Made by a program: the position numbers and the translations under genes. Positions 1,050 through 5,744 of a stretch of 64,000 nt of DNA are shown here, one piece after another (position 1 is the stretch's first letter; each line of letters starts with the position of its first letter). Source of the stretch: Shinella sp. WSJ-2 (GTDB taxonomy: Bacteria; Pseudomonadota; Alphaproteobacteria; Rhizobiales; Rhizobiaceae). The stretch is from the NCBI RefSeq assembly GCF_003432075.1, contig NZ_QWBU01000001.1, positions 62,001 through 126,000 on the forward strand, written 5' to 3'. The notes under the pieces are model-generated. The model was not told where the DNA came from. It ran no database searches and saw nothing but the letters and a program-made list of their open reading frames with translations.

Positions 1050-1078
1050 TTGCCAAAACATGGGCAAGGCCGTTATCT
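1050..1078 (+). promoter_or_regulatory. Candidate promoter of the gcv operon
   Basis: TTGCCA (1050-1055) and TTATCT (1073-1078) are separated by 17 bases. The implied start near 1085 falls just before the first base of the glycine riboswitch, which is where it should be. Assigned by eye; the -10 match is only moderate. Confidence 0.4.
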
Positions 1079-1090
1079 GGAGCCAACCTC

Positions 1091-1258
1091 GCTGGGAGAA
1101 ACCGGCCGCCTTGAGACAGGGCAGCGCCGGTGCCGAAGGAGCAACCGCCCCGGAAACTCTCAGGCAAAAGGACCAGCAAGGTGCCGTCAGAACTCTGGAG
1201 AGAAGCGCGAAAGCGCTCGCCGAAGGGATAACAATCTCAGGCGAAGGGACAGAGGGGG
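1091..1258 (+). promoter_or_regulatory. Tandem glycine riboswitch (two aptamers)
   Basis: Two successive copies of the glycine-aptamer core are visible. The first (about 1091-1173) has GGGAGA, then GCCGAAGGAGCAA and AAACTCTCAGGCAAAAGGACC. The second (about 1192-1258) has CTCTGGAGAGAAGCG, GCCGAAGGGATAACAA and TCTCAGGCGAAGGGACAGAG. The order and short linker match the known cooperative tandem arrangement in front of gcvT genes. It should sense intracellular glycine and switch on the glycine cleavage operon that follows directly. Confidence 0.93.
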
Positions 1259-1268
1259 CTCAGGAGAA

Positions 1269-1334
1269 CGGCGCAGCTGCGCCGGATTGTGAGCCGGCGC
1301 CCCTGAACTGGGCGCCAAGGGACTGGAGGGCGCC
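1269..1334 (+). promoter_or_regulatory. Expression platform of the glycine riboswitch
   Basis: A 6-bp hairpin CGGCGC/GCGCCG (1269-1284) is followed by three copies of the self-complementary block GGCGCC at 1296-1301, 1311-1316 and 1329-1334. Copy 3 overlaps the end of the gcvT ribosome site (TGGAGGG, 1324-1330) and is followed by TTTT. Pairing copy 1 with copy 2 leaves the ribosome site free; pairing copy 2 (or 1) with copy 3 buries it and makes a terminator-like hairpin. The mechanism is inferred. Confidence 0.55.
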
Positions 1335-1336
1335 TT

Positions 1337-2476
1337 TTGGACGGATCGTCTGAACTCAAGAAAACACCGCTTCACGCGCTGAACGTATCGCTCGGCGGTC
1401 GCATGGTGCCGTTTGCTGGCTATGAGATGCCGGTGCAGTACACCGCCGGCGTGATGAAGGAACATCTGCACACCCGCGCCGCCGCCGGCCTGTTCGACGT
1501 CTCGCATATGGGTCAGGTCACCGTGCGCGCCCGCTCCGGCGACAATGCGGACGCCGCCCGCGCGCTGGAAACACTGGTGCCGGTGGATGTCGTCGACCTC
1601 GGCGAAGGCCGCCAGCGCTATGCGCTCTTCACCAACGATGAAGGCGGCATCCTCGACGACCTGATGATCGCCAACCGCGGCGATCACTTCTATGTCGTCG
1701 TCAACGCCGCCTGCAAGGATCAGGACTTCGCCCATATGCAGGCGAAGATCGGCGATGTCTGCGAACTGACGCTGCATGACGACCGTGCACTGGTTGCCCT
1801 TCAGGGACCGCGGGCGGAATCCGTGCTGGCCGAACTCTGGGCCGACGTCTCCTCCATGCGCTTCATGGATGTGCGCGCCTGCGACCTGCACGATGCCGAC
1901 TGCATCGTCTCTCGCTCCGGCTATACCGGCGAGGACGGGTTCGAGATCTCCATTCCCGCGCATCTCGCCGAAACCGTCTGTCGCCGCCTGCTCGACCATC
2001 CGGACGTGCTGCCGATCGGTCTTGGCGCCCGCGACTCACTGCGTCTTGAAGCCGGCCTCTGCCTCTATGGCAACGATATCGACACTTGCACCACGCCGGT
2101 TGAAGGCGCGCTGGAATGGGCCATCCAGAAGGTTCGCCGCAAGGGTGGCGAGCGCGAAGGCGGCTTTCCGGGCGCCGCTATCATCCTCGACCAGCTTGAA
2201 ACCGGTGCGGCCCGCCGCCGCGTCGGTCTTCGGGCCGAGGGCCGTGCGCCCGTGCGCGCCGGCGCCGTGCTCGCCACCGATCCCGAGGGCGAAAATGTCG
2301 TCGGCACGGTCACCTCGGGTGGTTTCGGCCCCAACATCGATGGCCCTGTCGCCATGGGCTACGTGACCAAGGCGGCGATCGCTCCGGGCACCCAGCTCTA
2401 TGCCGGCGTGCGCGGCAAATTCCTGCCCGTGACCGTCGCTGCCATGCCCTTCGTCAAGAACACCTTCAAGCGCTGA
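1337..2476 (+). CDS. gcvT: Glycine cleavage system T protein (aminomethyltransferase)
   Basis: This 379-aa protein transfers the methylene group from the aminomethyl-lipoyl arm of GcvH to tetrahydrofolate, releasing ammonia. The N-terminal part has the family pattern KKTPLHALNVSLGGRMVPFA and GLFDVSHMGQ; the middle has SGYTGEDGFEIS; and the C-terminal beta-barrel domain has GTVTSGGFGP. The start is TTG (1337), with TGGAGGG eight bases upstream; no ATG in frame fits. It is the first gene of gcvT-gcvH-gcvP, 78 bases after the second glycine aptamer, so expression should rise with glycine. Length is normal for a bacterial T protein. Confidence 0.96.
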   Translation: MDGSSELKKTPLHALNVSLGGRMVPFAGYEMPVQYTAGVMKEHLHTRAAAGLFDVSHMGQVTVRARSGDNADAARALETLVPVDVVDLGEGRQRYALFTNDEGGILDDLMIANRGDHFYVVVNAACKDQDFAHMQAKIGDVCELTLHDDRALVALQGPRAESVLAELWADVSSMRFMDVRACDLHDADCIVSRSGYTGEDGFEISIPAHLAETVCRRLLDHPDVLPIGLGARDSLRLEAGLCLYGNDIDTCTTPVEGALEWAIQKVRRKGGEREGGFPGAAIILDQLETGAARRRVGLRAEGRAPVRAGAVLATDPEGENVVGTVTSGGFGPNIDGPVAMGYVTKAAIAPGTQLYAGVRGKFLPVTVAAMPFVKNTFKR

Positions 2477-2520: not shown

Positions 2521-2883
2521 ATGCTGAAATTCACTGAAGAACACGAGTGGCTGAAGATCGAAGGCGGCGTTGCGACCGTCGGCATCACGGTCCATGCGGC
2601 CGAACAGCTCGGCGACCTCGTTTTCGTCGAACTGCCGGAGGTCGGCGCGACGTTCTCGAAGGGCGGCGATGCGGCCACCGTCGAGAGCGTGAAGGCGGCC
2701 TCCGACGTCTATTGTCCGCTCGACGGCGAGATCGTCGAAGTCAACGAGGCGATCACCGCCGATCCCTCCCTCGTCAACGGCGATCCGCAGGGCGCCGGCT
2801 GGTTCTTCAAGCTGAAGCTTGCCAACGTGGCCGATGCCGACGGCCTGATGGATGAAGCCGCCTACAAGGAGCTTGTCGGCTGA
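2521..2883 (+). CDS. gcvH: Glycine cleavage system H protein (lipoyl carrier)
   Basis: The 120-aa H protein shuttles the aminomethyl intermediate between GcvP, GcvT and lipoamide dehydrogenase on a lipoyl-lysine arm. The lipoylation site is Lys58 in [11 protein letters not shown]; the flanking biotinyl/lipoyl fold is complete ([12 protein letters not shown] at the start, [17 protein letters not shown] near the end). AGAGAGGAAC lies before the ATG. Its stop overlaps the start of gcvP (TGATG at 2881-2885), which suggests translational coupling. Confidence 0.97.
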
Positions 2884-5744
2884 TGTCTCTCCCCAAGGAC
2901 TTTGCCTTTACCGATTACCAGCCCTACGACTTCGCCAACCGTCGCCATATCGGCCCCTCGCCGAAGGAGATGGAGGCCATGCTCAAGGTGATCGGGTATC
3001 CGAGCCTCGATGCGTTGATCGACGACACCGTGCCGAAATCGATCCGCCAGGAAAAGCCGCTGGAATGGGGCGCGCCGATGACAGAGCGCGAGGCGCTCGA
3101 CAAGCTGCGCGAAACCGCCGGCCGCAACAAAAAGCTCGTCTCGCTGATCGGCCAGGGCTATTACGGCACGATCACACCGCCGGTCATCCAGCGCACCATC
3201 CTGGAGAACCCCGCCTGGTACACGGCCTATACGCCCTACCAGCCGGAAATCAGCCAGGGCCGCCTCGAAGCGCTGCTCAACTACCAGACGATGGTCTGCG
3301 ACCTGACAGGCCTCGACGTGGCGAACGCCTCGCTGCTGGACGAGGCAACGGCTGCCGCCGAAGCCATGGCCATGGCGCAGCGTGTCGCAAAGTCCAAGGC
3401 GACGACCTTCTTCGTCGACGAGAACTGCCATCCGCAGACCATCGCGCTCCTGAAGACCCGGTCGGAGCCGCTCGGCTGGAGCATCGTCGTCGGCGATCCC
3501 TTCACCGAGCTCGACCCGGTCGATGTTTTTGGCGCGATCTTCCAGTATCCCGGCACCTACGGCCATGTGCGCGATTTCACCGGCCTGATCGCCCGTCTGC
3601 ACCAGACCGGGGCGATTGCCGTCATGGCAGCCGACCCGCTGGCGCTGGCGCTGCTCAAGTCGCCCGGCGACATGAACGCGGATATCGCCATCGGCTGCAC
3701 CCAGCGCTTTGGCGTGCCGGTCGGCTACGGCGGTCCGCATGCCGCCTATATGGCCGTCAAGGACGCCTATAAGCGCTCCATGCCGGGCCGCCTCGTCGGC
3801 GTCTCCATCGATGCGCGCGGCAACCGCGCCTATCGCCTTTCGCTCCAGACGCGTGAACAGCACATCCGCCGCGAAAGGGCCACGTCGAACATCTGCACCG
3901 CGCAGGTGCTGCTCGCCGTCATGGCCTCGATGTATGCCGTCTTCCACGGTCCGCAGGGCCTTAAGGCTATCTCGCAGAGCGTGCATCAGAAGACCGTGCG
4001 CCTTGCCATGGGTCTTGAAAAGCTCGGCTACACCGTCGAGCCTGAAGTGTTCTTCGACACGATCACCGTCCATGTCGGCAAGCTGCAGGGCATCATCCTG
4101 AAGACGGCCGTCGCGGAAGAAGTGAACCTGCGCAAGATCGGCGACGACCGCATCGGCATCAGCCTCGACGAGCGCTCGCGCCCCGTCACGCTGGAAGCCG
4201 TCTGGCGCGCCTTCGGCGGCGACTTCGAGGTGGCGGAGTTCGAGCCGGGCTACCGCCTGCCGGAAGACCTGCTGCGCACCAGCGAATACCTGACGCATCC
4301 GATCTTCCACATGAACCGCGCAGAAAGCGAGATGACGCGCTACATCCGTCGTCTCTCCGACCGCGACCTCGCGCTCGACCGTTCGATGATCCCGCTTGGC
4401 TCCTGCACGATGAAGCTCAACGCGACAGCGGAAATGCTGCCGATCACCTGGCCGGAATTCTCGGAGATCCACCCCTTCGTTCCCGCCGACCAGGCCCAGG
4501 GTTATCGCCATCTGATCGAGGACCTGTCGCAGAAACTCTGCGACATCACCGGCTACGATGCCGTCTCCATGCAGCCGAATTCCGGTGCGCAGGGCGAATA
4601 TGCCGGCCTCCTGACCATCCGCGCCTATCATCTCGCCAATGGCGATACGCATCGCGACGTCTGCCTCATCCCGACCTCCGCACACGGCACCAATCCGGCA
4701 TCTGCCCAGATGGTCGGCATGAAGGTCGTGGTCGTGAAGGTGTCGGACAATGGCGACATCGACATGGAGGATTTTCGTGCGAAAGCAGAGCAGTATGCGG
4801 AAACCCTCTCGTGCTGCATGATCACCTATCCCTCTACGCACGGCGTCTTTGAAGAGAACGTGCGCGAGATTTGTGAGATCGTCCACAAGCACGGCGGCCA
4901 AGTCTATATCGACGGCGCCAATATGAACGCCATGGTGGGTCTGGCCCGCCCCGGCGACATCGGCGGCGACGTCAGCCACCTCAACCTGCACAAGACTTTC
5001 TGCATCCCGCATGGCGGCGGCGGTCCCGGCATGGGCCCGATCGGCGTCAAGGCGCATCTGGCGCCCTTCCTGCCGGCAAGCCCGACGACCGGCGAAGCCG
5101 GCGCGGTTTCGGCCGCGCCCTTCGGCTCCGCCTCCATCCTGCCGATCTCCTGGAGCTACTGCCTGATGATGGGTGGTGCGGGACTGACGCAGGCGACGAA
5201 GGTCGCGATCCTCAACGCCAACTACATCGCTGCCCGCCTGAAGGGCGCCTATGACGTGCTCTACAACTCCGCCAAGGGCCGCGTGGCGCATGAATGCATC
5301 ATCGATACGCGCCCGCTGGTCGACAGTGCCGGCGTGACCGTCGACGACGTCGCCAAGCGCCTCATCGACAGCGGCTTCCACGCCCCGACCATGAGCTGGC
5401 CGGTCGCCGGCACGCTGATGATCGAACCGACGGAATCCGAGACCAAGGCGGAACTCGACCGCTTCTGCGATGCGATGCTGTCGATCCGTGAGGAAGCCCG
5501 CGCCATCGAGGAAGGCCGAATGGACCGGGTGAACAACCCGCTGAAGAACGCCCCGCACACGGTGGAAGACCTGGTCGGCGAATGGGATCGTCCCTATTCG
5601 CGCGAACAGGCTTGCTACCCGCCGGGCGCCTTCCGCGTCGACAAATACTGGTCGCCGGTCAACCGCGTCGACAATGTCTACGGCGACCGCAATCTCGTCT
5701 GCTCCTGCCCGCCACTTGAGGACTATGCAGACGCCGCCGAGTAA
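2883..5744 (+). CDS. gcvP: Glycine dehydrogenase (decarboxylating), P protein
   Basis: A 953-aa single-chain P protein, the usual length for the proteobacterial fused form. It decarboxylates glycine with pyridoxal phosphate and loads the remaining aminomethyl group on GcvH. Both halves of the fold are present; the PLP lysine is Lys704 in [18 protein letters not shown]. The C-terminus carries [18 protein letters not shown], typical of the family. Overlapping gcvH by one base and followed by a strong terminator, it is the last gene of the operon. The L protein (lipoamide dehydrogenase) is not in the window and is normally encoded elsewhere. Confidence 0.97.

Follow-up and report, generated by a model that had tools for sequence, protein, structure and literature searches.

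The window, a stretch of 64,000 nucleotides from Shinella sp. WSJ-2, carries the operon gcvT-gcvH-gcvP on its forward strand, with two adjoining glycine aptamers upstream that together form a tandem riboswitch. The top-ranking named matches to its GcvT protein come from Shinella. Both aptamers pass the gathering cut-off (32 bits) of the Rfam family RF00504, and a whole-genome search with this family recovers only this one place in the genome. The RF00504 model describes one aptamer of 94 positions and the expression platform is not part of it. The elements of the leader and operon are as follows.

1050-1078, forward strand: promoter-like TTGCCA, 17 nt, TTATCT, recognized by eye
1083-1185, forward strand: glycine aptamer 1 (Rfam RF00504, 61.2 bits)
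1086-1095, forward strand: 5' strand of P1 of aptamer 1 (P1-1), ACCUCGCUGG, pairing with 1173-1182 with one mismatch, C1090/A1178
1173-1192, forward strand: 3' strand of P1-1 and inter-aptamer linker, from pair probabilities and swap tests
1173-1176, forward strand: CCAG, predicted by folding to pair with the start codon UUGG
1178-1185, forward strand: AAGGUGCC, predicted partner of block 3, from free-ensemble pair probabilities
1185-1262, forward strand: glycine aptamer 2 (RF00504, 47.8 bits; place G000:C1:63185-63262)
1193-1198, forward strand: 5' strand of P1 of aptamer 2 (P1-2), CUCUGG, with CYGGAG of the Shine-Dalgarno (SD) region as a possible second partner
1250-1254, forward strand: 3' strand of P1-2, CAGAG, from folding
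1257-1295, forward strand: helix A, GGCUCA (1257-1262) with UGAGCC (1290-1295), probability 1.00 in free ensembles
1269-1274 with 1279-1284, forward strand: hairpin B, enclosed by helix A, from folding
1296-1316, forward strand: hairpin C, block 1 and C1302 (1296-1302) with block 2 and G1310 (1310-1316)
1323-1329, forward strand: SD region CUGGAGG, from sequence
1329-1336, forward strand: post-SD segment GGCGCCUU, block 3 plus UU, the proposed gate
1337-2476, forward strand: gcvT, first gene of the operon, TTG start (open reading frame; NCBIfam GcvT 576 bits, cut-off 459)
2521-2883, forward strand: gcvH (open reading frame; NCBIfam GcvH 164 bits, cut-off 117)
2883-5744, forward strand: gcvP (open reading frame; NCBIfam gcvP 1439 bits, cut-off 859)

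The original prediction of a glycine riboswitch expression platform is supported by the tandem RF00504 aptamers followed by gcvT. The promoter-like sequence would put the transcript start at approximately 1084-1086. Similar motifs (CTTGCC with an ATAAT- or TATCT-like partner) were seen, uncounted, 5' of other Rhizobiaceae leaders, and a promoter scan with stricter rules listed none for the leader region. Further upstream a terminator-like hairpin with a T-rich tail occupies 976-995 of the forward strand, between a reading frame (623-925) and the riboswitch. We note also that a pseudoknot of the kind reported from many other gcvT leaders (cited in the available portion of PMC13104608) could form between the poly-G tract following aptamer 2 (1254-1258) and the CCCC at 1148-1151, which lies in the P3 loop of aptamer 1.

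Three GGCGCC blocks between aptamer 2 and gcvT

The self-complementary sequence GGCGCC occurs, as first noticed, three times between aptamer 2 and the TTG start, at 1296-1301 (block 1), 1311-1316 (block 2) and 1329-1334 (block 3). The last does overlap the ribosome site, CTGGAGGG at 1323-1330, with GG 1329-1330 in common. The TTTT said to precede the start is present at 1335-1338, but its last two letters sit inside the TTG at 1337-1339. The window holds 85 copies of GGCGCC against 74.8 expected from dinucleotide shuffles, so that a single block is ordinary in this GC-rich DNA. The triple, with starts within 33 nt, is the sole case in the window (Poisson expectation 0.08 per window), and three copies arose in 2 of 20,000 mononucleotide shuffles of 1269-1339.

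The gcvT leader is present in all 21 of the 21 Shinella genomes searched. Inspection by eye finds an exact GGCGCC in 16/21 for block 1, 20/21 for block 2 and 21/21 for block 3, with all three exact in 15 genomes; the inexact blocks read GGTGCC (block 1 in five genomes, block 2 in one). The loop joining blocks 1 and 2 varies freely. Measured by the refuting condition attached to the original proposal, the three blocks are kept within the genus, but the GGCGCC triple is not kept beyond the clade of the window. The arms of the hairpin formed by blocks 1 and 2 and the post-SD letters differ between genera, which makes the triple a trait of that clade. Four Shinella genomes (G004, G006, G009 and G015) have additional RF00504 matches. 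In leaders L005 and L009 a tandem lies upstream of a reading frame starting MPHIAVIGAGITGVTTAY, the product of which resembles an FAD-dependent D-amino acid dehydrogenase.

Predicted pairing of the leader

The energy models used take no account of ligand, pseudoknots or kinetics, and the pairing outcome depends on the length of RNA folded. When 1269-1345 is folded alone, blocks 2 and 3 pair (2+3) in the minimum free energy (MFE) structure, the stability of which is no better than that of shuffles (z -0.2). With aptamer 2 added (1186-1345) the pairing of blocks 1 and 2 (1+2) wins, with a probability of 0.87 and a z value of -3.7 against shuffles. In RNA from 1085, which includes aptamer 1 and the linker, 1+2 reaches 0.96, with 2+3 and 1+3 at or below 0.01. 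In ensembles that begin at 1083, 1085 or 1186 and place no constraint on the block pairs, 1+2 lies at 0.86-0.96.

These values bear on the original proposal of a switch among interchangeable blocks, in which pairing 1+2 would leave the SD free and either 2+3 or 1+3 would cover it, so that translation, and perhaps termination, is controlled. Pairing 1+2 is indeed the favoured hairpin once aptamer 2 is present, but reads as constant rather than switching. The hiding pairs fare worse. Neither 2+3 nor 1+3 exceeds 0.08 in the full leader, and imposing them raises the ensemble energy by 3.9-6.3 kcal/mol for 2+3 and by 3.2-6.2 kcal/mol for 1+3, although gaps of this size (3.2-6.3 kcal/mol) do not lie far outside the error of the models. 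These alternatives are not absurd, given 2+3 in the MFE of 1269-1345 and the platform-only MFEs of some relatives (for example 1+3 in L062, L063 and L064, 2+3 in L173). In 1186-1345 forced 2+3 costs 2.9 kcal/mol in MFE. There it disrupts P1-2 by forming CAG/CUG and GGG/CCC pairs, which might connect it to the aptamer, but the CCCCUG that does so is missing, judged by eye, from most of the Shinella leaders listed.

What, then, pairs with block 3? In four free ensembles AAGGUGCC (1178-1185) is predicted to pair with GGCGCCUU (1329-1336) through 8 of 8 pairs with a probability of 0.92-0.99, and four further pairs are predicted between 1173-1176 and 1337-1340. Among 20,000 shuffles of GGCGCCUUUUGG, 0.16 per cent attain this duplex energy. 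P1-2 is formed at 0.76-0.80 in the free ensembles of the window. Forcing P1-1 on the leader costs 1.7-3.9 kcal/mol, a gap between the free and P1-1 states that a ligand can afford. The openness of block 3 then rises from 0.00-0.03 to 0.31-0.40, and that of the start from 0.09 to 0.61, 0.43 to 0.62 and 0.04 to 0.25 for three different 3' ends. The SD core gains little (at most from 0.33 to 0.52), and the maxima for 2+3 and 1+3 are 0.03 and 0.08. The linker, which the original proposal left out of account, is the strongest predicted partner of block 3.

Block 3 had also been assigned control of both translation and transcription. The former is plausible given the overlap with the SD, but the latter finds no terminator-like site. 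A forward-strand search for intrinsic terminators from 1083 to the gcvT start gave none, and the sole site on that strand is the one upstream at 976-995. An intrinsic terminator at block 3 was rejected since none appears there in the scan, and the T run is lost outside the clade of the window. A block of translation can in itself expose RNA to Rho.

Swap tests among related leaders

Of 244 gcvT leaders located 176 were parsed; the remaining 68 were without a P1-2 3' motif (25), a linker motif (25) or an SD/start (18). Twenty-four of the 176 were set aside as not Rhizobiaceae-type and 23 distinct ones tested separately. The working set is 152 Rhizobiaceae-type leaders, 88 with distinct linker/post-SD pairs. 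They share a layout in which P1-2 is followed by helix A enclosing hairpin B, then by a hairpin at the 1+2 place (81 of the 88), the SD and a non-ATG start (127 TTG and 25 GTG, ATG starts having been filtered from the set). A helix begins at the poly-G tract in 84/88, and the gap from GGAG to the start is 6-9 nt in 152/152. The 13 of 13 ATG-start cases with the same P1 tail belong to leaders of another linker type.

The swap test asks whether two segments form a more stable duplex when both come from one genome than when they are exchanged between genomes. From 6 to 12 segments were tested per run and p values are nominal. Genus tests drew on 131 of the 152 leaders, with one leader per genus over 25 genera. 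The idea of the linker arose from leaders up to L232, and the held-out pairs are new, although most belong to genera already represented. Duplexes of linker and post-SD segment are more stable within their own genomes, with z -7.5 over the 88 pairs and -4.1 over 43 thinned pairs (0/10,000 permutations in both), a median z of -4.1 over the 25 genera, and, in held-out data, z -4.7 for 38 pairs (1/20,000) and -2.8 for 12 genera (p 0.005). Removing the clade of the window (21 genera left) gives z -2.6 (p 0.007) for the linker and -3.4 (p 0.001) for its last 10 nt; removing the CCGG clade as well gives -1.2 (p 0.12) and -1.9 (p 0.037). When leaders are swapped only inside their genus the result is borderline (z -1.6, 1107/20,000, p about 0.055).

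The other blocks behave differently. Block 2 against the post-SD segment gives z -2.1 (thinned), -2.7 (25 genera) and -1.8 (held-out), fading to -1.2 (p 0.12) without the clade of the window and to +0.65 within genera. Block 1, with z +0.4 (thinned), -0.3 (genera) and +1.9 (held-out), is rejected as a family-wide partner of block 3, as is pairing of the post-SD segment with codons 2-5 (z +0.1). A positive control, the P1-1 5' strand against the linker start, gives z -6.7, and negative controls lie between -0.1 and +0.7. An initial control of 5' leader against linker gave -0.3 because the segment was badly placed. Block 1 against block 2 (z +1.0) and helix A (z -1.2) say little, since their arms are near-alike between genera, and the 1+2 hairpin rests on folding and on its presence.

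When the post-SD segment is shuffled instead of swapped the mean z is just -0.7. Runs of at least 5 bp between linker and post-SD segment show no excess (18 against 14.9 expected), and those of at least 6 bp do (10 against 4.5, 20/5,000). The match is kept with different letters in L188 (AAGGACG/CGTCCTT), L202 (GACACG/CGTGTC), L302 (GAACAG/CTGTTC), L286 (AGGCGT/ACGCCT), L242 (GGGGC/GCCCC) and L237 (AAGGTGCC/GGCACCTT); L243 and L249 keep GCCGG and have lost the linker CCGG. The linker is constant in the clade of the window and the informative changes there are two: in L237 block 3 is GGCACC, which improves its pairing with the linker and breaks that with block 2, whereas a mismatch in L236 worsens both. 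On this comparison the linker is the best-supported post-SD partner family-wide, with much of the weight coming from differences between clades; closely related leaders vary too little for the data within genera to settle the matter.

Full ensembles of the 88 leaders are more varied. The linker takes most of the post-SD pairing in 19/88 (mean 0.24), the blocks do so in 2/88, and other partners take the rest. In the clade of the window the linker is the majority partner in 9/13, with L151 and L160 preferring the blocks. With both P1 helices forced the start is more open in 52/88 leaders and less in 8, and the SD more open in 41/88 and less in 18. In many genera the linker stretch used lies outside P1-1, and there P1-2 would have to compete.

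Outside the Rhizobiaceae-type set the same linker rule was rejected for other alphaproteobacteria (z -0.5, 23 leaders). In Rhodobacterales leaders (L099, L102, L121 and similar) GATGCCG or GTGCCGG, made up of the helix A 3' strand and the bases after it, complements CGGCAT(G) at the start, which suggests, from the letters, a different way of hiding the start. In Bradyrhizobium leaders (L082, L083, L085 and others) GGGGC after P1-2 pairs with GCCCC just 3' of the SD in the MFE, and this predicted pairing is another different platform.

A proposed linker gate, its alternatives and known systems

From the positions of the elements, their conservation in the genus, the predicted ensemble and the excess of cognate over swapped pairing between genera we propose a translational ON switch for gcvT-gcvH-gcvP in which the linker forms part of the anti-SD, a model-based reading to which we allow a little short of an even chance. 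Blocks 1 and 2 would form a constant hairpin that spaces aptamer 2 from the ribosome site, and block 3, in the stretch from SD core to start codon, the gate. Without glycine block 3 would pair with the inter-aptamer linker, itself the 3' strand of P1-1, in a helix extending across the start codon, and CUCUGG of P1-2 may cover the SD (CYGGAG). With glycine the P1 helices would be stabilized and the linker strand occupied, so freeing SD and start. The competitor for the linker would be P1-1 in the window, and P1-2, via CUCUGG/CYGGAG, where the linker stretch lies outside P1-1. We infer the direction of switching, its glycine dependence, the transcript start and all kinetics; the ON direction and glycine as ligand are presumed because of the known gcvT glycine riboswitches (PMC13104608 and PMC5666159, as far as the available text of each goes). 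A bolder form for the Rhizobiaceae, in which both aptamers are read at a single place, the linker clamping the SD-start stretch and the 5' strand of P1-2 the SD, to give an AND-like gate that is made from the junction of the aptamers and needs both P1 helices, is possible though we lean against it. If true, selection would act on the post-SD spacer to keep it paired with a strand some 150 nt upstream.

Three other explanations should be addressed. Is the anti-SD simply the 5' strand of P1-2 pairing CUCUGG with CYGGAG, the linker match being incidental or a minor clamp? The two motifs occur in 148/152 and 135/152 leaders, mean pairing per nt is 0.31 for the SD with linker-plus-CUCUGG and 0.24 for the post-SD segment with the linker, and ligand control through P1-2 is explained directly. 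However, being near-constant, the motifs give sequence comparison no test of their pairing, two of the six pairs become G-U if Y is U, the linker excess between genera is left unexplained, and P1-2 stays formed (0.79-0.80) in the predicted OFF state of the window. We consider this account unlikely.

The three-block switch we judge similarly improbable, and less likely than a fixed hairpin with a linker gate. It can draw on 165/174 pairing clade cells for blocks 2 and 3, and likewise 165/174 for 1 and 3, on the block 2 signal over 25 genera and on L151 and L160, in addition to the short folds described above. Against it are the full-leader probabilities, the lack of co-evolution of block 1, the loss of the block 2 signal without the clade of the window and its absence within genera, the want of a terminator-like site at block 3, and L237.

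Most doubtful is a block 3 that does no switching, a stable GC-rich spacer with control elsewhere, for example in Rho-dependent termination or RNA decay; GGCGCC is common in the window and 1269-1345 folds no more strongly than shuffles, but block 3 is exact in 21/21 Shinella while the 1-2 loop varies, and the linker covaries between genera. A Rhizobium etli tiling array, in the accessible part of its report (PMC2881028), saw known riboswitch leaders without downstream expression and inferred termination. This favours the spacer and bears against a purely translational view, but the reported termination alone does not contradict a translation block.

Returning to the linker gate, it would offer a reason for the conserved and otherwise odd post-SD sequence in Shinella. 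Why glycine riboswitches have two aptamers is an old question; were the linker the anti-SD strand, aptamer 1 would act on output directly. Among the titles and abstract openings of open-licence literature searched there was no linker-SD pairing and no tested rhizobial gcvT platform. The riboswitch is of an ordinary kind, a glycine riboswitch, and its unusual platform is plausible. In the systems available for comparison output passes via aptamer 2 or a downstream terminator (PMC5666159 and PMC13104608, from partial text). The tandem riboswitch of PMC5666159, as there excerpted, resembles that of the window in having two aptamers upstream of gcvT, and its first aptamer and leader-linker kink-turn matter most in vivo. 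It uses an intrinsic terminator in the absence of glycine, whereas in the window none was found and a linker pairing with SD and start is proposed. The Neisseria gonorrhoeae gcvT tandem riboswitch is, in the portion of PMC13104608 at hand, similarly turned ON by release of the ribosome site, with a platform poorly conserved between species. There a binding-pocket segment of aptamer 2 pairs with -1 to -11, in contrast to the present proposal, in which the pairing strand is the linker/P1-1 3' strand, perhaps joined by the 5' strand of P1-2. In the tandem riboswitch of Vibrio cholerae (P0 leader-linker kink-turn), according to the available section of PMC12060979, the linker is again a pairing strand; it pairs with the 5' leader, whereas the predicted start in the window would leave almost no leader and the other partner of the linker would lie downstream.
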